Shown: positions 2,668-61,255 of the stretch, piece by piece
Position numbering within the stretch: position 1 is the stretch's first letter
Layout: each line of letters opens with the position of its first letter
Origin: Echinarachnius parma
Lineage: Eukaryota; Echinodermata; Echinoidea; Clypeasteroida; Echinarachniidae
Direction of reading: 5' to 3'
Assembly (NCBI GenBank): GCA_037951105.1
Contig: JBAMJV010003041.1
Span: 1-64,000, forward strand
DNA: 64,000 nt
Position numbers and translations under genes: made by a program
The notes under the pieces: model-generated
Told to the model about the DNA's origin: nothing
Databases searched by the model: none
The model's input: only the letters and a program-made list of their open reading frames with translations

Positions 2668-3241
2668 GGCCCCGTTGCAGAAAGAGACAATCGATTGTAA
2701 GTTATGATAAGTCGGATCATGTGTTCTATAAATGCGCAAATCTGATTGGTGGAAACACGCTTGCACATGCATTTTCTGTATTATACAGAGTTATATCAGG
2801 GAAATGGGAGTTTGAAACTCCCATTTCCCTGGTTATATAGTTGCTTGAATACTGTACTTAACAACTTTACGAATTACGTTATCAGTCGTTGGCTCCGTTG
2901 CAGAAAGAGATACAATCGATTGTAAGTTACGATTATTTATAAGTCAGATCATGTGTTCTAAATGCGCAAATCTGATTGGTTGGAACACGCTTGCGCTTGC
3001 ATTTTCTGTATTATACAGAGTTATATAGTTGCTTGAATACTACTTTACGAATTACGTATGTAATTACGAATCAGTCGTTGGCTCCGTTGCAGAAAGAGAT
3101 ACAATCGATTGTAAGTTACGATTAATCGTAAGAAAATTTACGTGTTTCAAGTACCAATCAGATTTGTGCATCTAGCACAGTCATGATCTGACTTATAATT
3201 AATGTACAATCGATAGCATCTCTTTCTGCAACAGGGCCCAG
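2668..3241. mobile_element. Compound MITE: three tandem forward units and one inverted end
   Basis: Units start ggcyccgttgcagaaagaga at 2668, 2891 and 3080 and continue caatcgattgtaagtta, agtcrgatcatgtgttct, aatctgattggt and ttatacagagttatat. At about 3130-3241 the same sequence is inverted and ends gcaacagggccc. The family thus has long terminal inverted repeats (gggccctgttgcagaaagag), and here the left end was amplified in tandem. No ORF. Unit 1 carries a 36-bp hairpin insert (2797-2832). Confidence 0.8.
2791..2838. mobile_element. 36-bp hairpin insertion with TTATAT duplication
   Basis: Positions 2797-2832 form a hairpin: 17-bp perfect arms (cagggaaatgggagttt and its complement) around a single G, plus a final G. 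It lies between two TTATAT copies (2791-2796, 2833-2838). The sister unit at 3016-3040 reads acagagTTATATagttgctt with one TTATAT and no hairpin. This gives both empty and filled sites in the same window. Confidence 0.85.
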
Positions 3242-3400: not shown

Positions 3401-5440
3401 ATTTCATGTTGGCTAGTAGACCAGATAGGAGTAGACGAAATTGGTGCAAACCATGCACGCAGTAAGCTAGAAGAACAAAATAATGTGCCGAAAGATACTG
3501 TCATTTGGCCGAATACTGTCTTTGCTTTCAAAAGGAACACATTAAGACAATATTTGAGGGTCTTTATACCACACCGCTGCCGGATATGTGGCCGAGTATT
3601 GGCATTTTAATAACAAGTGGGGACTGTATCCCCCCCCCCCCCCCCCCCCACCACCCCCTTACCGTTCGTATACATTTAGGAAGTTATACTAAACCGTTTT
3701 CTACCAATTCATCCACATTTGCCTCAGGAGTCGAATTTATCTTCCACAATTCGAGGATTGCAGCCACCCCCCATCTCTTCCGCCCCTTCGTAAAAATGCT
3801 TAATCTGTATACAGTCAATTTATTACCTCTATTAAGGTAGTAATTTGGTGTTTTAATTGGGTCACCAATCATCTGTTATTGTACCCTCAAGACTCGGGGT
3901 TCAGACATTAGAGCGTGTAGACGTTCAATACTTAATTTCTTCAATTCATCATTGTTTGAAATCCAATTACAAAGATAAATACTATCTCATCAATAACGAA
4001 ATTGTTTGACTTGATGGGATGTAATATAATAGTATGGTAATGTGACCGTTCAACTTTCTTTTGAAAGTATGTCGAATTCAATATATGTGCATTTAATAGG
4101 CAAGTATATTCAATTGTATGAGTATAGCTGTCTGAAGATCAATGTGTATCAGTATCACAAAATATCAAATTTCATGTGCAATTCAAACTACAGTTATTCC
4201 ATCGTTTTAATCATGTCAATAGGACCCTATTGGACACCTGTCTAACAACTCTCGCGGCGCTTTAAAACAGATGATTATTAATATTATCAATAAATATGAT
4301 TTTAGCAAATTGGTAAAAGTATCTTATGATGATAATAGAATAATTTGACTGTATATTACTGTCGTTACACATAATGGTCCTATACCGTCCTGTGCGAGGC
4401 AAGAGCATATCTACACAATCAATGAAGATACATGTAGCCTTCATAATCATGATAATGAAATGTATCGCGACGTCTCAACTCCGGGCCAGTACATCTTGTT
4501 ACATTACAGGATGCTATATAATAGCTGGGGCATGTGGGTTATCGCATGTAGAAACATTATCATAATTATTCCGAAGATATGACATTTCATATCTAAAAAT
4601 AACACACACAGACTTGAGAGTGAGAAGGCCATAGTCCATACGTCGATTTTTTACTTAATTGAGTTATGTAAGACATCTTGCTGGTCGACTAATATGATGG
4701 TAATTTGTTAGGTTACCGTATTATCATTATTTATAATTTGGGGAATATTAATTATCAAAAATAAAAGAGCTAAATGTGGTTACTATACAGGTTGAGTTTT
4801 GGCATAGAGGGCGCTACACAAACTAATTTTATGTGAGATAATGAAAACCGAGTGTTAAATTTAAAATAACATACACTCTTTGACAGAATAAACTTATTTG
4901 ATCAAAATCGGTTCAGAGACGGCTGAGATATACATAAATATAACCATTTTGTATTTATTGTGGGGCCCCACGTAATAATTCAGCCGTTGAAAACAAAAAT
5001 AATTACTAAAATTCAGTTTGACCAAACCTTAACAATCCCTTTAAACCTGCCAGAATACCGGTAACACAAACAACCACTAGCACTTCATTCGTTTCCTTAA
5101 CGGGAGTTTGCATTATCGAGAGGCCAGACGCAGATTAAGAACGCACTTGAGGTTGGAGATTTTGGTAGACTAATGGTAACGGATTTACTCGAAATTGCAG
5201 ACAGTTTCAATTTTCCTGACCTTTTCAAGTCGTCTACGGCCCGATTTATCCTGCTTACAGGCATATTATACCGTTACAGTGACGTATTGGTGCTGCAGTT
5301 TCCTCGTATGTTGTGATAAATTAGGATGTTTTTCACTTACGTTAATGATTGCGAGTCAGAAAAGCATGGCATTAAATTATTTTTTGTTAATACCAAACTA
5401 CACTTATTCATGTACCACTAACAACAAACGGAAGAGTAAT
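3400..5440. other. AT-rich DNA with one poly-C tract, no gene seen
   Basis: A C20 run lies at 3630-3649. The rest is AT-rich with only short chance frames. A decayed TTAA-type terminus (aatccctttaaacc) lies near 5033-5046, suggesting an old transposon remnant. Confidence 0.4.
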
Positions 5441-11081: not shown

Positions 11082-11205
11082 GGCGTACCCAGGGGGGGGG
11101 GGGGGTTCAACCCCCCCCCCCCCCCCCCCTGGGTACGCCTCCCCCCCCCCCCTCTTTGACCAAAAAATGACTGTTTTGGGGGGTTTGAACCCCCCCCCCC
11201 CTTTT
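11082..11205. mobile_element. Palindromic aggcgtaccca poly-G/poly-C element
   Basis: aggcgtaccca then G14 (11092-11105), ttcaa, C19 (11111-11129), then tgggtacgcct and C12. The ends aggcgtaccca/tgggtacgcct are perfect inverted repeats. A second ggggggtttgaac-C12 module follows to 11201. It resembles the gtggcgta/poly-G repeats elsewhere in the window. Confidence 0.7.
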
Positions 11206-11365: not shown

Positions 11366-11828
11366 GGCTAAACCACACCCACCTATTTTCACCTTTAATG
11401 TAGGCCTATGTCTTGTGAAGGTAATGTCATCCAGGACATCATCGACTTTGTCATTTGTATAATATGATTATGATAATTTATGACTAAAGACATGATTGCA
11501 AATCCATTTTTTTTTCTTGCATTTTCCCATTTACTTTCTGATCACTGATGTTCCCCTCTGTGCTATACGAGTAGTATAGATTTCAATTATTTGCATTTTA
11601 TTTCAACAGAAAATCATGAATTTCCCTGTAAGAAAAAACAAAAACAACGATAAATATACAAATCATTCGGCTATCATTTAAATGTACAACCACTAAATTG
11701 AGTAGCTGGGGGGGGGGGGGGGGGGTGATTCCCAAGTTCACCGTATCCCATTCCGATCCCATTCCCTGAGTGGGAGAACATTATTATTTAAGTATTATTT
11801 GTATTATCGGCTCTGGCTCATGGCTGTC
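11365..11828. other. AT-rich DNA with a G18 tract
   Basis: No gene seen. G18 at 11708-11725. The remainder has no obvious structure. Confidence 0.4.
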
Positions 11829-11933
11829 CCCACGGGCGTAGACATGTCATTGATACCCATTCAACTGGGGGGATGAGCTATTCATCCATCCCCCCAGTTG
11901 AATATGTATTACGTAACTCGCTACGCCCGTGGC
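11829..11933. mobile_element. Inverted-repeat element with cacgggcgtag ends
   Basis: The outer arms ccacgggcgtag (11830-11841) and ctacgcccgtgg (11921-11932) are perfect. An inner hairpin attcaactggggggatg (11859-11875) pairs with catccccccagttgaat (11887-11903). The gcgtag end recalls the gtggcgtag repeats. C17 follows at 11971-11987. Confidence 0.7.
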
Positions 11934-12007
11934 TGTCCCCATCCACACCTCCCTCTCATAAGAAACCCTGCCCCCCCCCCCCCCCCCTCGCCTTCTCAGT
12001 CGACTCA

Positions 12008-12064
12008 GACAAGGCCATATAGAGCTGTATATTTCTTATATATACAGCTCTATGGACAAGGCCA
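12008..12064. mobile_element. 37-bp hairpin insertion flanked by gacaaggcca direct repeats
   Basis: The 10-bp direct repeat gacaaggcca occurs at 12008-12017 and 12055-12064. Between them lies a hairpin with 14-bp perfect arms atagagctgtatat (12019-12032) and its complement (12040-12053), with a 7-nt loop. The layout matches the TTATAT-flanked hairpin at 2797, but here no empty site is available in the window. Confidence 0.75.
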
Positions 12065-17780: not shown

Positions 17781-18067
17781 ACATATCGTCGGTGACATTA
17801 CGTACCGGCGAATCTTCAAATTTCGGTCGATTTTTCGATTTTGAGTTTTTGGCATATTTTTGATGTCTATACCCAACTCTATCACAATTTTGTCTCTATT
17901 TTCGAATATCAATTTCTGAAAATCAATGATATCGTGAATTTTGAAGACTGAAATTCAGATATGTGATAGAGTTGGGTATAGACATCAAAAATATGCCAAA
18001 AACTCAAAATCGAAAAATCGACCGAAATTTGAAGATTCGCCGGTACGTAATGTCACCGACGATATGT
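17781..18067. mobile_element. Perfect 106-bp inverted repeat (287-bp foldback element)
   Basis: The arms 17781-17886 (starting acatatcgtcggtgacatta) and 17962-18067 are identical in reverse complement across all 106 bp by eye, around a 75-bp AT-rich spacer. The neighbouring tandem unit reads tttatatggtcttagacatc with no element, so it looks inserted. Identity of the arms implies recent origin or ongoing arm homogenisation. A transcript would form a long perfect double-stranded hairpin. Confidence 0.9.
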
Positions 18068-29105: not shown

Positions 29106-32100
29106 TCACGACTTTCCTTCCTCGGTCTCGCTCGCGCTATCAGTTTTCTCTGATGACCCAGGACTTCCTGGTGCCTTCTGCTCACTCCTGCCTTCAGAAC
29201 CCTCTTCCGCAATCTGCTCGCTCCTGCCTCCAGAACCCTCTTCCGCAATCTGCTCGCTCATGCCTCCAGAACCCTCTTCCGCAATCTGCTCACCCATTTC
29301 CATATGTCCTTGCTCGCTCTCACCCCCAGGACCTTCTTCTGCGATGTCTGGATGCAGGTGCAGGAGATCCTGCTTGTGGGCAGGAAGTTTCCCCTGCCGC
29401 TCCAGGGTCATCAGGTGACCCTTGGACCTCAGGTGCTTGGCAAGGTGTCCAGGAATGCGGAACGCGATGGCACACTCCTTGCACTTGAATGGACGTGGGT
29501 TGGAGTCCGAGCCGGTTGTCGTAGAGAGCTCAACGCCTTCCACACGCAGGAAGTGCTCCTCTGAACGCTCATGCTTGGAGAGAAAGTACTTGGTGGGGAA
29601 GGTGACAGCGCAGTCGTGGCAGGTGAAGGAACCTTCGGTGGTGTGCACCCTGGCATGGATGCGCAGCTGGCTTGGCTTGATGAACGACTCCCCACACTGG
29701 GTGCAGCGATGGTGACCATGGCTACCAGATGGCGAGAGCGTCACTTCATCATCACTGGCTCGTTGCCTGGACTCGTCCATCGCAACATCACTGGAATGCT
29801 TGTCCTTTAGATGACCTTCTGAAGAACTAGATGACGTCGGGGAGATAAGAACAGGATGCTCTCCTTCACTGGCAAGAGATGACGCAGGAGATGCTTTTTC
29901 ACGCTGTGGTCCCGCCTTCGATTGACCTTGGTGCGATGACAGGTGCATGGGGAGGATGGTTGGCGGAAGCTGGAACATCTTAGATGGCAGCATGGGGGAC
30001 ACCAGTCGACTGTAGGGACTTGGTAAGAAGGGGCTGAGGAGTGTCGGTGATGCTACTGATGCACCGTGGAAGGATGGAGATGGAGGTAGGAAGGGTGACA
30101 CAAAGCTCTGAAGAGGTGATTTATCCCCTGGTGATGGCCACAGAGGCTTGGCCAAAAGAAGCTGCTTGATAGCCTTTCCAGGGTCCATCTCTTTATCTTT
30201 AACGCTCACGCTTGATTTAGGTCCACTTGCACTTGATGAGATGCTTGGTTTAGCCTTCTTGCGATGCACCTCATCATCTTCATCATCAGAGACAGGTTCA
30301 ATAATTGGTGAGGCGATTGGAGGTTGAGGTTCGTTCTGAGAACTTGGTTTGTAGTAGCTCATCTTCGAACTTGACCGCTCTCGCTCTCTCATCAAACTCT
30401 CGTGTGGCCTGACTGCTAAACTTGAAGGGCGGGTTTTAGCGTCCTCTTTTCTCTTTGATGGTTCTGATGAAGTCACATCTCCTACTCGTAGAGCTTTACT
30501 GGTGAGTGTGTCCACAGGTTTCTCCGACTTAGAGTCAGCATCTTCGGTGTTATCAATTCTTCTTGATGATGAAGATGCTTCTTGATTTAGCTTTTCTGTC
30601 TTTTGGCTGCTGACTGCAGTACCTGAACTTGATTTTGGGGTTTCCAAACTAGCCCCACCAAGATCACTAGTGATGCCAGTTTCCTCTTTTTCTTTTACAG
30701 AATTTGAAGGGATGACTGTACTTCCAGTGGCAAGACGATACTGATTCATGCATGGAACATAAGACTGCAGGGAGACGATGTGTCCATACTTATCAAGGGT
30801 TGGTGGTGGCTGTGATTTTTCTTTTGTAACCCTGCGACTGAATGCTTCACCCGATAGAGGAAGTTGTGAGAGACTCTGTGACTTGGTCAGTGGAGCATGA
30901 CCCTTCTCTCCTCCTATGTGAGCCCTCTGCCTGTTGGTAAGGTGCTGAGAGAGCTTGCACACCACCTCCGACCTTGAGAGCTTAGATCCTTGATCATCCT
31001 TCTCGGCCATATCCCGGGGCTCCAGGGTCTCGCTGAAAGACCTCTTCAGCCTGGGATGTCTCATGGTATCTCCTAGACTGGATTCATTTCCTTCCGGAGT
31101 CATCTCTGTGTTGTCGCCCTCCATTTCTTCATTCATACCATCGTCCATCTCCTCCTCCTCCGAATCCTCATCGGCTGAATCGGTGTCCTCGTTGTCATCC
31201 GCATCCGAGTACTGGTGGTCATCACACTCCTCGTATGCACTGGAATCGATACCGTGCTCATGCTCCAGGTCTGAGGGATTGATGCCATTCTCCAAGCATT
31301 TCTTTGTGTGTGCTTTGGACTTCATGTGCTTGGTCAGGTTACCCTTGGTCTTGAAAGCAAAGCTGCACACACTGCACTGGAACGGACGCACATCGGTGTG
31401 CGTCCTGATGTGCTTCTTCAGCATGCTTGGTTTCTTGCAGCGGATTCCACACTCCTGGCAGACATACTTCCCTCTGCCTCTCCCTCGGACGTAGACATAC
31501 TCCTCATTGGACTTGAAACCTCCCTCAAATATGGGTATTCTCTTGGCTTCCTTCCCCTTCACCGGTTTGGCAATGGTAGACTCACCCTCCTGAGTTTGTG
31601 TGGGATGCTCTGCATCAATAGGTGTAGTTGCAGTGGACGAGGTTGGTGTTTTCGTCACTCCATCTGGCTGCATCTCCTCACTGACTGCTTTAATTCTTTC
31701 CTCAGACATGTTCCATGCAGAAGAGTGCGTCAGAATACCACCACCCGCAGGGCTGATGCTGGACATCACATCCTTCACATCTTTCTTATTCATTCCGGAG
31801 TTGTACATTCCAAGATAAGCTTTCCATGACACTCCAAGTGAGTGCATCTTGTTGTTGCCACCGCATTTCCAGTTGGAATACATGGACAACTTGTGATTGT
31901 CTTTCTGCTGTACGTACATTGGTTGTGATTGACGTGTGCAGCAATCGGTGACCTGCGCAACACCCTTCATCCTGGATGATATGTTTGCATAGAGGAACGT
32001 CGGGGCTTGTGCAGGTCCGTTTCCAGCTTTGTTGGTTTTCACGCTGCTGAACCAATCTGCAAGGCTTTTCCCAGGCTTCTTTTGGGTTGACTTTGGAGCT

Positions 32101-35100
32101 TCCTTGGGGGTACTCGGGGCACTCCTGAGCAAGGTAGGTGTCAACACTTTTAAAAGCAGCTCTCCAGTTGTACTATCAATTCTCACAGGTTCAGGTTTAA
32201 CCACAGTTGGAGTTGGCTGATCTTTAACAGTCTCTGGAGAATCAACTTCATCCTCTACTTCAGGTTCCTCAGGAACGGTTTCCGTGTCTGCTGCTTTAGG
32301 TGCTTTAACAGTTGGAGACACATCCGTCAGATCCTTCTTTGCAGATGGAGGTCTTCCCTGTGATGGACTCAGGCTATCAGATGGTGTCAGAGGAGACTTG
32401 TCTGACCGTGGAGATGAGCTTGACGGGAAACTTGGAGCATGAGAGGATGATGGAGATGGCAGGATGAAGAATTTTGACTGAGGTTTACCTTCTGCAGTCG
32501 GCGTTGCGATGGGTCCAACAATGACTCCTTCATCTGAGGTGGTGAGAACGCTCTTCATGCTTCCACCAGCATTGTGGAAAGCGTGAGCCACAAGGCGACC
32601 CAGCTCACGTGCTGTTTCAATGGGAGTGCTCGGAGTCTTGGTTTTGAGTGGTGACTGCGACATCCTCATGACTGATTCAGCAATGGATAATGCTTCTGGT
32701 GAGAGCAGGACCCTAGGATCAATCCTTGGAGAAGACTTTGCTCCATCAGGAGTTGATGCCCCCCTCACTGCAGCTGTAAGGGGCTTCTGGAGGTCCAGGC
32801 TGAGGCGATGTCTTGCCGCTGCACCTGCTCCAAACTTCATTGGTGACTTGGGGAACTTTTTGCCCCCCTCCGTTGGAGTGTAGGCCCCGGACAGCCCTGC
32901 AACATCAAGCTTCGGAATCTTAGAAGACATGGGGGATCCCATAGACTGGAGTTTTGATGTTAAATCCAGCGCATGAGTTTGTTCACTAGGTGTTCTCTTT
33001 GTTGGCAGGGATCTCCCGGGGCTCATGTTTAGTCCAGGTATGGCTGGTAAATTCCTCCGCTTCTGCAAACTTGCACGAGCACTGTTTTCATCAAGAGCCA
33101 GAGTAAAGCTCTTTTTCTTCCTGGCAAGGGCTTCATTTACAGGCATATGTTCTAAATTTGGTGTCTTCTTAGACTGCTCTTCTCTGCCATGTAGATGTTT
33201 GGATGTGGGAATCATGGGGCTGCTCAGGCCTGGCGTCTTAGGAGTGAGTGGTGATTGCGGTGGCACAACCTTCAGCAGTCCATCGTAGCTGGGAATATCA
33301 TGCATTGTTGGCGTAGGGTGGCGATATTCCCCTCTGCTTCCAGCGCTTGAAGTCGTAGCATGAAAGGCTGACACTGGACTCTGCCTTTCCTTCGCTAGAT
33401 TCGAATACACAGCAGGTGATTCTCTTTTCCGTTCACTACTTTCTTGCCCGTGAGAAGATGAAGAGGGTCCGGGCATGAATGGGAACGGTGACGGAGTGTG
33501 AGGTGTAGTAGGAGTGTGCTGAATGACGGACACTCCGGGATAGTTCGCCTCCGGTGTCTTGATGGATGGGTTTGGTGAATAAGGGTTCCTGAGCGGGGTG
33601 GATGTGCCTTTCGGCATCGATGCGTGCAGCCCGAGTAAATGCGAAGCAGCCTGGTTCGTGTCTGGTCCGGGAAATGGAGGTGAAAACATTGGCAGCATGG
33701 AATGAGTGGGTGCAGCATTGTGATGAGGCAAGCCTTTCGTCACCTCCTCTTCATGAATCGGTGTGTGGTCGTGATGTTTACGCGCTCTCTTCTGCGAATG
33801 ATGCTGGTCGTGCGAGCCCGGAGCTTCACTCTCAGATTTGCTCTTTTTCCTCTTCTGTCCAGATTTCCCATATTCCTCGCGTTGATGAGTACTCTGCTCT
33901 CTTTCTCTATCTCTTTCTCGTCCATACTGATGTGTCTGCGGCAGCTCGGCAGGCAGGTGTTGCATCATGGGAAGAGGGTGGTACATGGCTGGCAGTGGGT
34001 ACCTCATGCCACTCTGCAAAGCTTCCTTCATCATCCACGGCGCTACCATACCAGCTGGAGCCCATAGGGGTGAGTACTGCTGTCGATCCATGGGTAAGCT
34101 CTGGCCTAGCATACCGCCAGCCGCCTGCTGAGTCAGTTTGTGCTGCAGCAGTATATTCCTAATCGTACTACTGTCGCCTGGCACTGACTGGTGAGAAGTA
34201 AGTGGCAAGGAAGTTGGCAGCTTAGTGGCTGCGCTGAGACTGGCTTCCTCTCCCTTGTACAGCTCGTGCCTCGAATGACCCGTGTGCTGCAGTGGCGCGT
34301 GCTGGCTGCTAGTGAGGGCTTGAGCTTCCCGCTGTCTATCATGATTTCCCCTCGCTTCCTGCCTGCTGTCCAAATTAGTTTGCTCGGCCTGCTCTGACCT
34401 TCTCCGCGTCTCCATGGCGACAGCGCTACTATCAGCACCGCCTCGCGACTCACTGCGCATGTCAGGGGGAGGCTGATGGGGTGGGGTGGCTGACAGACTC
34501 TCTCGGTAAGAGAAACTAGGTCTCCTTGGTTTCACCGACTCCAAATCTGAATCATCGACGATTGCCTCGTTTTGTGTGATAAGTTTTTGTATGTGTTGCT
34601 GCAGCTTGATTTGGGTGGATGGGGAATTTATCGATGGGCGGGACTTTCCCTCTCTCTCGGGCGCCGGTGGCTTCTCCCCTCCCCCGTACATTCCTTGTTT
34701 CTTCATCACCTCTTCTGATAAGCCAGGGATGCCCTCCACAGGAATCTGCACATGGTATTGCCCTCCAGATTTCACAATATTTAAGTTTGTAAGAGGGATC
34801 ATTATTTGGCCAGATGAGTTGGGTGTTTGCTGCTGCTGTTGGTGTAATTTTTCATGTTCTGATGTGGGGAATTTCTCCACCCTTGAAAATGCAGAACTTG
34901 AAGGTTCAGTGTCCCTTTTGACCTTATCAGATTTCCTCCGATGGTGGTCCGGGTAGGTACTGCCATGGTGCTTCCTCATTTCTTCTAACTGTGCATTTGC
35001 TGGGTGATGTAATGATGATTGAACTTCCTCAAAGTTTCTCCTTTGTCTTTCGTGACCCATGTTCGGTAATGTTCCCCACATCATGTTCCCCGTTTGGCCG

Positions 35101-36562
35101 GCAACGGGTGACGGCTGCGCTTTGCTGGAGGGAACGAACATCGGATGACCCTCAGGCAATGAATTGCGCCCCCCGTTGACGAAAGTCTGCAAACTTGTCT
35201 GCGTCATTGTCAGTCTATCTTGCTGCGCTGCAAGTTCTTTCTTTATTGGTTTCTGAACAGAGGTGATTTCTTGCGCCGTTCTCACTTCTGGAGTACTCTC
35301 TTCATCAGTGTCTGTTTCATCAGAACTCTCATTTTCAAAGTCCAGTGATTTTAGGTCTGGAATGCTTTCTGAGGATCCAGCCTTGGCTGCATGAGCGTGG
35401 CTTTTACAATGTTTGTAGAGATTGCTCTTTGTTTTGAAAGATATTCCACACGGTGTGCAGGGGTATGGTCGCTCACCAGTGTGCGATCGTATGTGCTTCT
35501 TCAACACACTCGGCTTCGAACACCTTCGTCCACAATAATTACAAACGTGCTTCCCTTGCTTCACACCTGACTGCCCGTCTACGTCACCGTTTTCTTTGGA
35601 GGCTGAAACTTTTTGCGGTAGGCTCTTCTCCAGCTCCAAATTATTGTTTATGTTTCGATTGTTTTCAGGATGCTTGTCAGAATTCTTCAAGTTTTCAGTG
35701 GCCACTTTCTGTGCATGGTCCACAAATTGCATCAATCGTGACTGGCTGATGTCTGGCTTGATGACAGCATTAGTTTGTTTGAACACGGAAGGGGGCGTTC
35801 GAGGTGCAATGATTGTATCGCCTACTGAAGACACTCCATGATGCTCTACAGCCAGACTGGTCATGCTCTTGAACTCCTGCCCGGTGATCTCCAGCAGAGC
35901 TTCCAGCGCTTGCTGCTTCAGGGCACCTTCCTCCTCGCTCTCCGAAGTCCTCAGTACTGATGCTTTCGCTTCTTTCTCGTCAATAACTAAATTATCGTGC
36001 AGGAGTTCTGTATTTGCTTCTGTCTTAACGCACACAGAATCATCCTTCAGTACTGATGCTTTGGTGTCTGCCTCCTTCCCAGAAGATGAGTGTCTCTGAC
36101 GACTCTTCTTTGGACTCCTTGGCAAAGTGTCTTTGGCAGTTTTAGTTGGCGACGCAGTCTTCCGCTCCTGGGAATCCTGCGACACAGACTTCCTGTCCTG
36201 CGACGCCCGTGACATGCGCGCCCGGCGCTCCTTTATGATATCATACTTGTCCTTGTAGATCACGTCAAAGACAGGGTCTGGAAGAATCTCTGCCACTTCC
36301 TGCTTTGGTTGAACCGTGAGGGTACCGATGTCCTCTGCTTCTCCTGTGATTTCCTGTGACTTGAGAGCAGACTCCTGTAACTGCAGGGCACCCAGAGTCT
36401 CTGGTTCACCTCGATGCTTCTCCCGCTGTGCTTTTGCTTCTCGTTTCTGTTTGACTCTGTCTGTGATCTTCACTTTCATGGCACTCTTGTACTTGGGTTT
36501 TTTGCCATGCTGTCGCCGGCCGGGGCGCTTCTGATCAGCTGTGATCCTGGCCAGGTCATCAT
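29106..36562 (-). CDS. HIVEP: Schnurri/HIVEP-family zinc-finger transcription factor, 3'-terminal giant exon
   Basis: The open frame encodes about 2,484 residues after a 3' splice site and ends at a TGA at 29106-29108. Seen in order: a basic N-terminal segment (KPKYKSAMKVK), a C2H2 pair at 35550-35390 with an acidic Ser-rich tail, an EAIVDD..VKPRR motif near 34520-34575, SVIQHT near 33515-33532, long Ser/Pro/Thr-rich low-complexity stretches, a conserved block at 31997-31706, the motif YVYVRGRGRGKYVC leading into a second C2H2 pair (31470-31308), a long acidic tract, and three more C2H2 fingers (29714-29408). The paired ZAS domains and YVYVRGRGRGK are hallmarks of HIVEP1-3 and Drosophila Schnurri, nuclear factors that bind kappaB-like sites and cooperate with BMP/Dpp SMADs. 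No Cys-rich central CCHC finger is seen. Codons upstream of 36562 are intronic. The first Met inside the exon is at 36479, but the true start probably lies in an upstream exon. There is one gene; the overlapping plus-strand ORFs are shadows. Confidence 0.94.
29178..29330 (-). repeat. 36-bp coding minisatellite near the HIVEP C-terminus
   Basis: The encoded 12-residue unit IAEEGSGGRSEQ occurs three times with small changes, plus a degenerate copy at the N-terminal side (IAEEGPGGESEQ). The 36-bp period is seen directly, with the same DNA phrase at 29197, 29233 and 29269. The frame is preserved, so copy-number change would alter protein length without frameshift. It lies after the finger triplet, 20-70 residues from the stop. 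Confidence 0.9.
29408..29714 (-). other. C-terminal triplet of C2H2 fingers (Schnurri-type)
   Basis: Three fingers are visible. Finger 1 runs from CTQCGESF to HARVH (C-X2-C-X12-H-X3-H). Finger 2 runs from CHDCAVTF to HERSEEH, and finger 3 from CKECAIAF to HLRSKGH (both C-X2-C-X12-H-X5-H). Drosophila Schnurri has a C-terminal finger triplet required to assemble with Mad/Medea on brinker silencers; the vertebrate HIVEPs I know end without one. A SMAD-linked role here is inference from position and number of fingers. Confidence 0.85.
31308..31470 (-). other. ZAS-C domain: second C2H2 pair with acidic tract
   Basis: The sequence [20 protein letters not shown] starts finger 1; the linker is THTDVRPFQC and finger 2 ends [20 protein letters not shown]. 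Upstream is YVYVRGRGRGK, diagnostic of the family. Downstream (about 31060-31260) is a dense Asp/Glu tract containing DEDSEEEEMDDG. Together they make the second ZAS domain. No intron interrupts it. Confidence 0.93.
31706..31997 (-). other. Conserved block preceding ZAS-C (W/C-rich module)
   Basis: The block includes FLYANISSRMKG, VTDCCTRQ, QQKDNHKLSMYSNW, SWKAYLGMYNSG and a final SSAWN. Vertebrate HIVEPs carry a recognisably similar unit upstream of the second ZAS domain, with a QxDxKxSxYxxW core and a following W or L..LNS segment. It is rich in Trp, Cys and Tyr inside otherwise disordered Ser/Pro sequence, so it is probably a small folded or binding module. The role is not known to me. Confidence 0.7.
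34515..34580 (-). other. Conserved HIVEP segment EAIVDD...VKPRR
   Basis: The encoded segment reads KLITQNEAIVDDSDLESVKP followed by RRPSFS. From memory of the family, vertebrate HIVEPs have a closely similar KLI..NEA.VD....SVKPRR.S.S segment between the first ZAS domain and the middle of the protein. Its function is not established as far as I know; a basic Ser-rich motif of this kind could be a phosphorylation or docking site (inference). Confidence 0.7.
35390..35550 (-). other. ZAS-N domain: first C2H2 zinc-finger pair
   Basis: Two adjacent C2H2 fingers are joined by a canonical TGERPYPC linker. Finger 1 is C-X2-C with KPSVLKKHIRSH. Finger 2 contains SFKTKSNLYKHCKSHAH. This pair is nearly invariant in HIVEP/Schnurri proteins and is the known kappaB-type DNA-binding module. 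It is followed by an acidic Ser-rich segment (ESSDETDTDEES), which completes the zinc finger-acidic-Ser/Thr (ZAS) layout. Confidence 0.93.
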
Positions 36563-36600
36563 CTGCAGCAAAATAGAAACAAAAAGTAAAGAAAATTGTG
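36561..36600 (-). other. 3' splice site opening the HIVEP giant exon
   Basis: Read on the minus strand, a pyrimidine-rich tract containing ctttactttttgtttc is followed by ttttgctgcag and then the exon sequence ATGATGACCTGG. The intron is phase 1: the G of a split Asp codon is supplied by the upstream exon. Before this point the frame encodes hydrophobic AT-rich intronic residues; after it, a basic hydrophilic protein. The change in composition supports the boundary. Confidence 0.8.
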
Positions 36601-36813
36601 ATTAGAAAAGTGGAACAATTACCATGATTATTTATAACTAAGTCAAGAAAGTAAGGAATAAGAAAATAAAGAAAGAGAATTGTAAAGTCATATAAATTTG
36701 TAAAAATATACTGGACTAAAATTACATTACTTTGTCGCTTGATGAAAGTAGCACACATCAAAATAGTAGTTACTCTGTTATTTCATTTCACACGCCCCCA
36801 TAATCATATCTTA

Positions 36814-59960: not shown

Positions 59961-61255
59961 TGTAGAAATCTTGTGATTGAGCAAAACAAAAAATTATGAT
60001 AATTTGCGCTACGGAAAGAGGCCATCCCAGAAAATATAGTATTGATCAGAATTGCTGGGGGTGACCCTGGGTAGTAGAATATCTTGAGTTAATAATGTTT
60101 TCATTGTGCATACTTCGCCAATCAACCTTCCCTCTAGAAAAAAACAACATGTGATTGATACAAAATGATAACTTGTGCAAGGGCAAGGCCGCAAGGGACC
60201 ATCCCCAAAATATATTATTAACAAACATGAATTTATATAGTTATAATCAGGAAAATCATGTGATCAGTTGTTTTTCTCATAATGCATATTACTAACCCAA
60301 CCTTACCTCTAGAAAATAACATGCGATTGAGAAAAAATGATAGTTCCTGCTAAGGAAAGAGGCCATCCTAAAAAATACAATATTGACAAAGTTTTACTAT
60401 AGAATGATCTGGGGGGTGTTTCACAAAGATACTAAGTTGATCTTAGCACTAAGATGGTCTTAAATATTATGGAAAGCCACTAGTGTCTTGAAACAGTTTT
60501 GTAAAAGTTATGTTGAAATGCATAAAATGTTGATTCAAATCATATATCAAAGAGATTCATGATCTTCACATAAAATTCGTGAAATTTCTTTGATAATTAG
60601 AAAATATATATGATTTGAATCAACATTTTATGCATTTCAACATAACTTTTACAAAACTGTTTCAAGACACTAGTGGCTTTCCATAATATTTAAGACCATC
60701 TTAGTGCTACGGTCAACTTAGGATCTTTGTGAAACACCCCACTACTAGGGTTAATAGAAATCATGTGATCATCTTTTCCCATCATTATCATTCGAACCTA
60801 CCCTCAAGAAAATGACATGTGATTGAGAAGAAACAAGAAGAAGAAGATAATTTATGCGAACGAAAGAAGCCATATCCCCCAAAATACTCTAAAGACGAAA
60901 GTTTTGCTAAAGAAATATCAATACACTACTAGAATTTAATGGAAAATTGTATGATCATCTTTCCCCTAACTCCGCATACTATCCTATCCAAGCCTTCCCC
61001 CCAAGAATGACATGTGATTGAGAAGGGGAAAAAGAAGGAAGCTAATTTGTGCTAGTGGAAAGAGGCCAACCCAGAAAATACAACAGTTACATAGATTCAT
61101 TTTCATATCTCGCTCAGGACTGCTGGGGGTTAACAGAAAATCATGCGATCATTTTTAGAAAAAATGACACGTGATTATAAAAAAAGACGATAATTTGCGC
61201 GAGGGTAAGGGGCCATCCCTGAATATAACGAACCCTGGGTTCGACGGAAAGATGT
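59960..61255 (+). repeat. ~170-bp tandem repeat, six units, one carrying a MITE
   Basis: gtgattga-type words at 59973, 60151, 60323, 60819, 61014 and 61171. Each unit has gataatttgygc, gaaagaggccatccc.aaaata and aaatcatgtgatca. Subtracting the 330-bp MITE, spacings are 178, 172, about 166, 195 and 157. Confidence 0.85.
60411..60740. mobile_element. MITE with TGTTTCACAAAGAT termini, copy 2 (near-palindrome)
   Basis: Ends ggggtgtttcacaaagatac and ttaggatctttgtgaaacac-ccc. The arms (about 125 bp) are nearly identical in reverse complement, including ttaaatattatggaaagcca, tgtcttgaaacagttttgta and tgaaatgcataaaatgttga. A short spacer (about 60538-60612) has its own weak hairpin. It sits inside the ~170-bp tandem array, so it is younger than the array. 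No ORF. Confidence 0.9.

Follow-up and report, generated by a model that had tools for sequence, protein, structure and literature searches.

How did a short perfect palindrome come to occupy one unit of a tandem repeat, next to a unit in which the same site is empty? The locus that raises this question lies in a 64,000-nt stretch of the Echinarachnius parma genome (positions 1–64,000 of contig JBAMJV010003041.1), which we refer to as the window. The palindrome (2797–2831) is 35 bp long and consists of a 17-nt left arm, CAGGGAAATGGGAGTTT (2797–2813, plus strand), a lone G (2814, plus strand) and a 17-nt right arm, AAACTCCCATTTCCCTG (2815–2831, minus strand), which is the inverted copy of the left one. 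Direct reading of the sequence places a copy of GTTATAT flush against either side (2790–2796 and 2832–2838, both plus strand). The initial annotation recognized the hairpin but called it near-perfect, and described a 36-bp insert between 6-bp TTATAT repeats; the palindrome is perfect (17 + 1 + 17 nt), and the frame was one base off, G2832 being part of a 7-bp repeat. By a simple expectation, a palindrome with arms of at least 17 nt and a loop of 0–7 nt would occur about 7 × 10−5 times in 64 kb, and 6 × 10−9 times with flush 7-bp repeats. Among 40 simulated windows of 64 kb (first-order Markov), arms of at least 9 nt with a flush repeat of at least 6 bp appeared once in total, around a much weaker palindrome. 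A chance origin of the structure at 2790–2838 is excluded.

The host repeat is a tandem array with three units in the window, all delimited by unit alignment on the plus strand: unit 1 (2668–2890) carries the insert, unit 2 (2891–3079) does not, and unit 3 (3080–3238) is partial and terminates in an inverted terminal repeat. Between units 1 and 2, a 42-bp alignment gap corresponds exactly to the palindrome plus one GTTATAT copy and the flanks otherwise match, leaving a single GTTATAT (3020–3026, plus strand) as the unfilled site. The pairing of filled and empty sites seen initially is real: the hairpin entered a target that is still present in unfilled form in the adjoining unit. That the pair fixes the direction of change, as also claimed, does not hold. 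Slippage between direct repeats flanking a palindrome is a known process, and slippage between the 7-bp repeats could also have removed from unit 2 a hairpin ancestral to the host repeat. The comparison consists of the two units and their second contig, C5900, a 94% identical version of the locus with the identical insert, junction and duplication (one arm base differs) that is probably the other haplotype; the insert is present on both contigs. Unit 3 lacks the stretch that holds the insert in unit 1 and therefore offers no outgroup, and units 1 and 2 are the host-repeat copies of this stretch that were compared, with no third to polarize the change. The direction of change comes instead from many unrelated target sites, where the same hairpin is found between other duplications. 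These sites, together with the flush 7-bp repeats that an insertion is expected to leave, make ancestral presence followed by slippage loss very improbable.

The hairpin is dispersed through the host assembly (1.2 Gb, 14,790 contigs). A search with positions 2740–2900 of the window returned 27 matches, which include C5900 and 13 further hairpin loci. Seven of the 13 have an exact 7-bp duplication, two have a duplication with one mismatch and four have none; the exact duplications are ATGAAAC, CTATAAC, GTATAAT, GTTGTAC, GTTATAC and, twice, GTTATAT, and the centres differ too. The 17-nt arm was found at 409 places (195 + 214) with up to one mismatch, against six (3 + 3) for the reversed control, and two-armed hairpins (12 nt per arm, 0–24 nt between arms) at 29 places, against none. 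The initial annotation had proposed such a search and allowed that no other copies might exist; they do exist, with duplications of their own. Within the 64-kb window no second copy of the arm was found at up to three mismatches, nor any Rfam match, and no copy of the hairpin was found on viral contigs.

The exact 17-mer occurs at 77 places in 75 loci, 73 of which were scored; of the others, one lies near a contig end and one is the window locus, scored through C5900. A script reduced these to 66 independent sites, the denominator used below; on reading, L093 is the same repeat as L054 and L086, which gives 65 sites, 17 of them without a duplication. In all, 119 loci were parsed. In the part scanned, eight showed no end at up to one mismatch (L013, L020, L031, L033, L034, L040, L045 and L088, the last too close to a contig end), 38 loci with one-mismatch ends were left out of the duplication and junction counts, and L023 and L024, the window locus and its second contig fetched twice, were left out with L009 representing the locus. 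Because loci were selected through the 17-mer, scars with shorter remnants at both ends are under-counted. A variant of the end with TCT in place of TTT, CAGGGAAATGGGAGTCT, has 41 exact places in the assembly.

At 29 of the 66 independent sites, the last 7 bp of the left flank recur exactly 17–75 bp downstream; with flanks swapped among sites as a control, the figure is 0.57 per 66. When the left 7-mer is taken further out, the count falls to nine, eight, two and two sites at offsets of 1, 2, 3 and 5, and to between zero and two at offsets of at least 8. The eighth base matches in only 8/29 and 6/29 of the exact-duplication sites, so the repeat is 7 bp long. With up to one mismatch, 47/66 sites are duplicated, although in six of the 18 one-mismatch cases the match starts within the 17 nt and could be accidental. 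No duplication is found within 75 bp at 18/66 sites. At these 18 the common sequence likewise ends after 17 nt, and loss of the right flank, as in some P-element repair events in the available part of one account (PMC2895639), would fit them. The 29 duplications are not random in composition: T stands at position 2 in 25, A at position 6 in 23, C at position 7 in 20 and G at position 1 in 16, a preference for GTNNNAC (GTAGTAC at L061). A duplicated target around what would be remnants of one or both ends of an element is the layout of an excision footprint, and a duplication of 7 or 8 bp with a palindromic GT...AC preference is a P-superfamily trait.

What lies between the duplications varies from site to site. 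The inserts of the exact-duplication sites are 17–55 bp long and comprise 21 different sequences among the 29. Each begins with the 17 nt, followed by a variably trimmed inverted partner that is attached through microhomology, a blunt join or filler; among the 47 sites whose duplication is exact or has one mismatch, the two parts overlap by 1–3 bases at 20, meet bluntly at eight and are separated by filler at 19. Four sites share the join GGGAG(TTT)CCCTG, with a 3-base match. At L082, for example, the sequence reads CTCTTAC, 17 nt, CTCTTAC; at L060, GTTTTAC, 17 nt, G, GTTTTAC; and at L061, GTAGTAC, 17 nt, TCCCTG, GTAGTAC. Some sites are single-armed: two of the exact sites hold the 17 nt without a partner, and two more hold the 17 nt plus G. 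The junction therefore differs among independent sites, as is characteristic of footprints, and 21 junction sequences in 29 sites fit independent excisions and not copies of one 35-bp mobile unit.

This variation bears on two other accounts of the hairpins. In the first, a palindromic transposon of 28–37 bp, terminal repeat joined to terminal repeat, would move by itself, mobilized in trans; the initial annotation offered a kindred idea, a foldback transposon reduced to its minimal form. The coincidence of insert ends with 7-bp duplications at many sites agrees with this account, as does the recurrence of some inserts at different targets (CAGGGAAATGGGAGTTTCCCTG at four sites, CAGGGAAATGGGAGTTTCCCATTTCCCTG at three). 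Yet the joins that recur are the ones made through T or TTT microhomology, the 21 different inserts among 29 sites speak against one self-moving product, and the four one-armed exact sites lack the second end that movement would need. Foldback and palindromic MITEs resemble these inserts in being palindromes flanked by direct repeats, but they move as fixed units, complete and conserved at different targets, whereas here the centre and one arm vary. One candidate that looked like such a unit, a 28-bp hairpin at 11 of the 29 two-armed places, was rejected: all 11 have identical flanks and represent one event, in one host repeat and at one target site. We regard a self-moving micro-transposon as quite unlikely. 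The second account is a templated repair patch at a random break, with no transposon involved. The initial annotation had named repair at a break, which is right in kind: the variable centres would be end-joining junctions, and their filler and microhomology resemble end joining. Local templates cannot, however, account for 77 exact occurrences of one 17-nt sequence, nor for a duplication with a fixed length of 7 bp, and the dispersed copies refute the patch for the family, leaving it next to no credence.

The scars are inherited and were copied along with host repeats; they are not somatic events of the sequenced animal. We draw this from the junction common to both contigs of the window locus, from C992 and C1930 (L025 and L026), which have another junction in common and the same flanks, and from the 28-bp scar, whose target is AGCGACC and which is found in 11 copies of a single host repeat (L028–L030, L032, L036, L038, L039, L041, L042, L046 and L049).

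The length of the remnants bears on the kind of transposon. Among 18 independent hairpins found with 12-nt seeds, the 36 arms keep 12, 13, 14, 15, 16 and 17 nt in 2, 9, 3, 7, 4 and 11 cases, respectively, counted up to 17. After nucleotide 17, the next base at 71 TTT-type loci, not deduplicated, is C in 22, G in 21, T in 21 and A in 7, so that no base is common; the 17-nt limit rests on this absence of a shared eighteenth base and is partly tied to the 17-mer query. The TCT variant has A at position 18 in 6/7 loci read, compared with 7/71 in the TTT type, which suggests a subfamily whose limit may be 18 nt. The P transposase of Drosophila cleaves at a point 17 nt into the terminal repeats, so that 17-nt 3′ tails remain, according to the available parts of two accounts (PMC7776569; PMC2895639), the first of which calls this cut unusual and atypically long. 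The end-joining table in the available part of the second shows the two copies of an 8-bp duplication enclosing remnants of at most 17 nt from either side, which meet through microhomology or filler. For another member of the superfamily, Galileo, the accessible text reports 7-bp duplications with the consensus GTANTAC (PMC4168063).

We therefore favour the P superfamily on two separate counts, the 7-bp GTNNNAC duplication and the 17-nt remnants, and give a probability of about 0.75 to the reading that the hairpins are heritable end-joining excision scars of a cut-and-paste transposon of this superfamily. A transposon with terminal repeats starting CAGGGAAATGGGAGTTT would have inserted at GTTATAT and duplicated these 7 bp; the duplication and the empty neighbouring site are what the sequence shows. 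Its transposase would then have cut one strand at the ends of the element and the other 17 nt inside, so that 17 nt of terminal repeat stayed on each flank; we place the cut there because the shared sequence ends at that point and because the P mechanism is known to work in this way. End joining would finally have sealed the two identical 17-nt tails with one filler G, giving the 17 + 1 + 17 nt that now stand between the target copies. The same process would have run at dozens of unrelated sites, mostly with different junctions.

Excision scars could also have been left by another cut-and-paste superfamily whose members leave long terminal-repeat remnants. The inserts begin with CAGGG and finish with CCCTG, that is, with CA and TG; this agrees with the P superfamily without being specific to it, as CA...TG ends are common to several superfamilies, hAT among them. 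The failure to find a parent, or an end linked to a transposase, likewise leaves room for such an origin, which we nevertheless consider unlikely: the 7-bp GTNNNAC duplication and the 17-nt remnants both fit the P superfamily, and we know of no 17-nt cut in any other. Those two failures also count against the P-footprint reading itself, as do the 18/66 sites lacking a duplication and the 7-bp length, compared with 8 bp in the P elements of Drosophila and zebrafish.

The 73 scored loci yielded no full-length parent with these ends. Ends with one mismatch number 332, of which 23 and the 41 of the TCT type were listed. Two candidates, L050 (220–823, 604 bp) and L053 (5368–5972), seemed at first to be full-length elements with terminal repeats continuing as AAAGGGATAGTTGAG. 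We rejected them as parents because their interior, from position 15–16 to 585–590, aligns with copies at unrelated loci (L090, L062, L063 and L054). Both are a 34-bp scar (17 + 17) that holds a MITE with ends AGGGATAGTTGAG at a central TTAA; the MITE borders come from the alignment, and the pattern match, which presupposed TTAA, lends it no support. The 34-mer occurs at seven places at up to three mismatches, four of which are these two copies. Many of the loci retrieved contain related MITE copies, and the window has a fragment near 4791–5029.

The assembly does contain P-type transposases. Profile PF21787 has 68 matches on 49 contigs, some of which are parts of one gene. One of them, at L130 (1083–3374, minus strand), is a 764-aa open frame with the P helix-turn-helix, both RNase H parts and the GTP-binding insertion (Pfam), and it matches the Drosophila P transposase structure 6p5a with E 1.5 × 10−23. 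The 49 PF21787 contigs contain none of the 118 exact ends that were listed (77 TTT, 41 TCT), the other one-mismatch ends being mostly outside the list, and the 5-kb L130 locus contains no such end. A MITE with ends TTAAAGGTAACGTTGAG adjoins the L130 frame (3874–4656).

The closest likeness we found is to the repair junctions of P{wa} in Drosophila melanogaster as presented in the accessible portion of PMC2895639: the target is duplicated, each end retains at most 17 nt, and the joins are blunt or made through microhomology or filler. Those are laboratory events in marked flies, with an 8-bp target and a known parent, whereas the scars described here are inherited, in a wild-type assembly, with a 7-bp target, a different sequence and a parent that was not found. 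Galileo shares the 7-bp duplications and a near-palindromic GTANTAC preference but differs in its long terminal repeats and intact copies, and excision footprints do not appear in the available parts of its descriptions (PMC4168063, PMC2775673). The P-like elements Pdre2 and THAP9 of zebrafish place the superfamily outside insects, but they have 8-bp duplications and 13-bp terminal repeats, and the available part of PMC10983969 gives neither a cut position nor a scar series.

The E. parma series would thus be a known kind of event, the P-type excision footprint, in an unexpected form: dispersed and inherited, with a 7-bp target and a parent not found. Laboratory crosses are the known source of P-element footprints. 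If the scars described here are the natural counterpart, the genome itself records where a transposon sat before it left, how the transposase made its cuts and how breaks in the germline were joined. Computation could then address whether the P superfamily had the 17-nt stagger from its origin, and which kinds of junction are preferred in germline end joining. Such scars would also account for otherwise unexplained inserts and hairpins of 17–55 bp, a size that repeat finders designed for longer elements would probably overlook. Our search of the open-licence literature, in the parts accessible, found no description of such a natural series, which is weak evidence of absence. A bolder version of the excision reading, to which we give somewhat less than an even chance, is that a ghost P-type transposon, vanished from or not in the assembly, is known only through its inherited scars, of which there may be hundreds; that the scars are a natural archive of germline end joining, from which the transposase cut can be placed at 17 nt in an animal that is not an insect; and that a second family in the window hints at a general, unrecognized class of short palindromes.

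That second family is represented at 12008–12062 (plus strand), where a 39-bp near-palindromic insert, CATATAGAGCTGTATAT TTCTT ATATATACAGCTCTATG (12016–12054), stands between two copies of GACAAGGC (12008–12015 and 12055–12062). The exact direct repeat there is 10 bp long (GACAAGGCCA), and the 8-bp frame was chosen such that the insert begins with CA and finishes with TG. The core of the hairpin occurs at four assembly loci, against none for the control, with four different centres. At one of them, L132, there is an exact 8-bp repeat, GAGTAGTC, which is out of the CA...TG frame by one base; neither L131 nor L133 shows a direct repeat of at least 6 bp. On this thin evidence, 12008–12062 looks like a second, small scar family.

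Further hairpins of other kinds are present in the window. A 101-bp hairpin element, CACGGGCGTAG...CTACGCCCGTG (11831–11931), can be framed by 8-bp repeats, GCTGTCCC, within 11823–11939. A foldback of roughly 200 bp at 778–981 has a near-perfect 54-bp core hairpin (842–895), and two larger foldbacks have arms of 106 nt that are 100% complementary (17781–18067) and arms of 135 nt that are 98% complementary, with ends GGGGTGTTTCACAAAGATAC (60413–60740). Poly-G runs opposite poly-C runs form G/C hairpins at 2315–2353 and 11092–11124. The window also contains an intronless open frame of 2,558 aa with C2H2 zinc fingers (Pfam) at 29106–36782 on the minus strand, which we take to be HIVEP/Schnurri-like.
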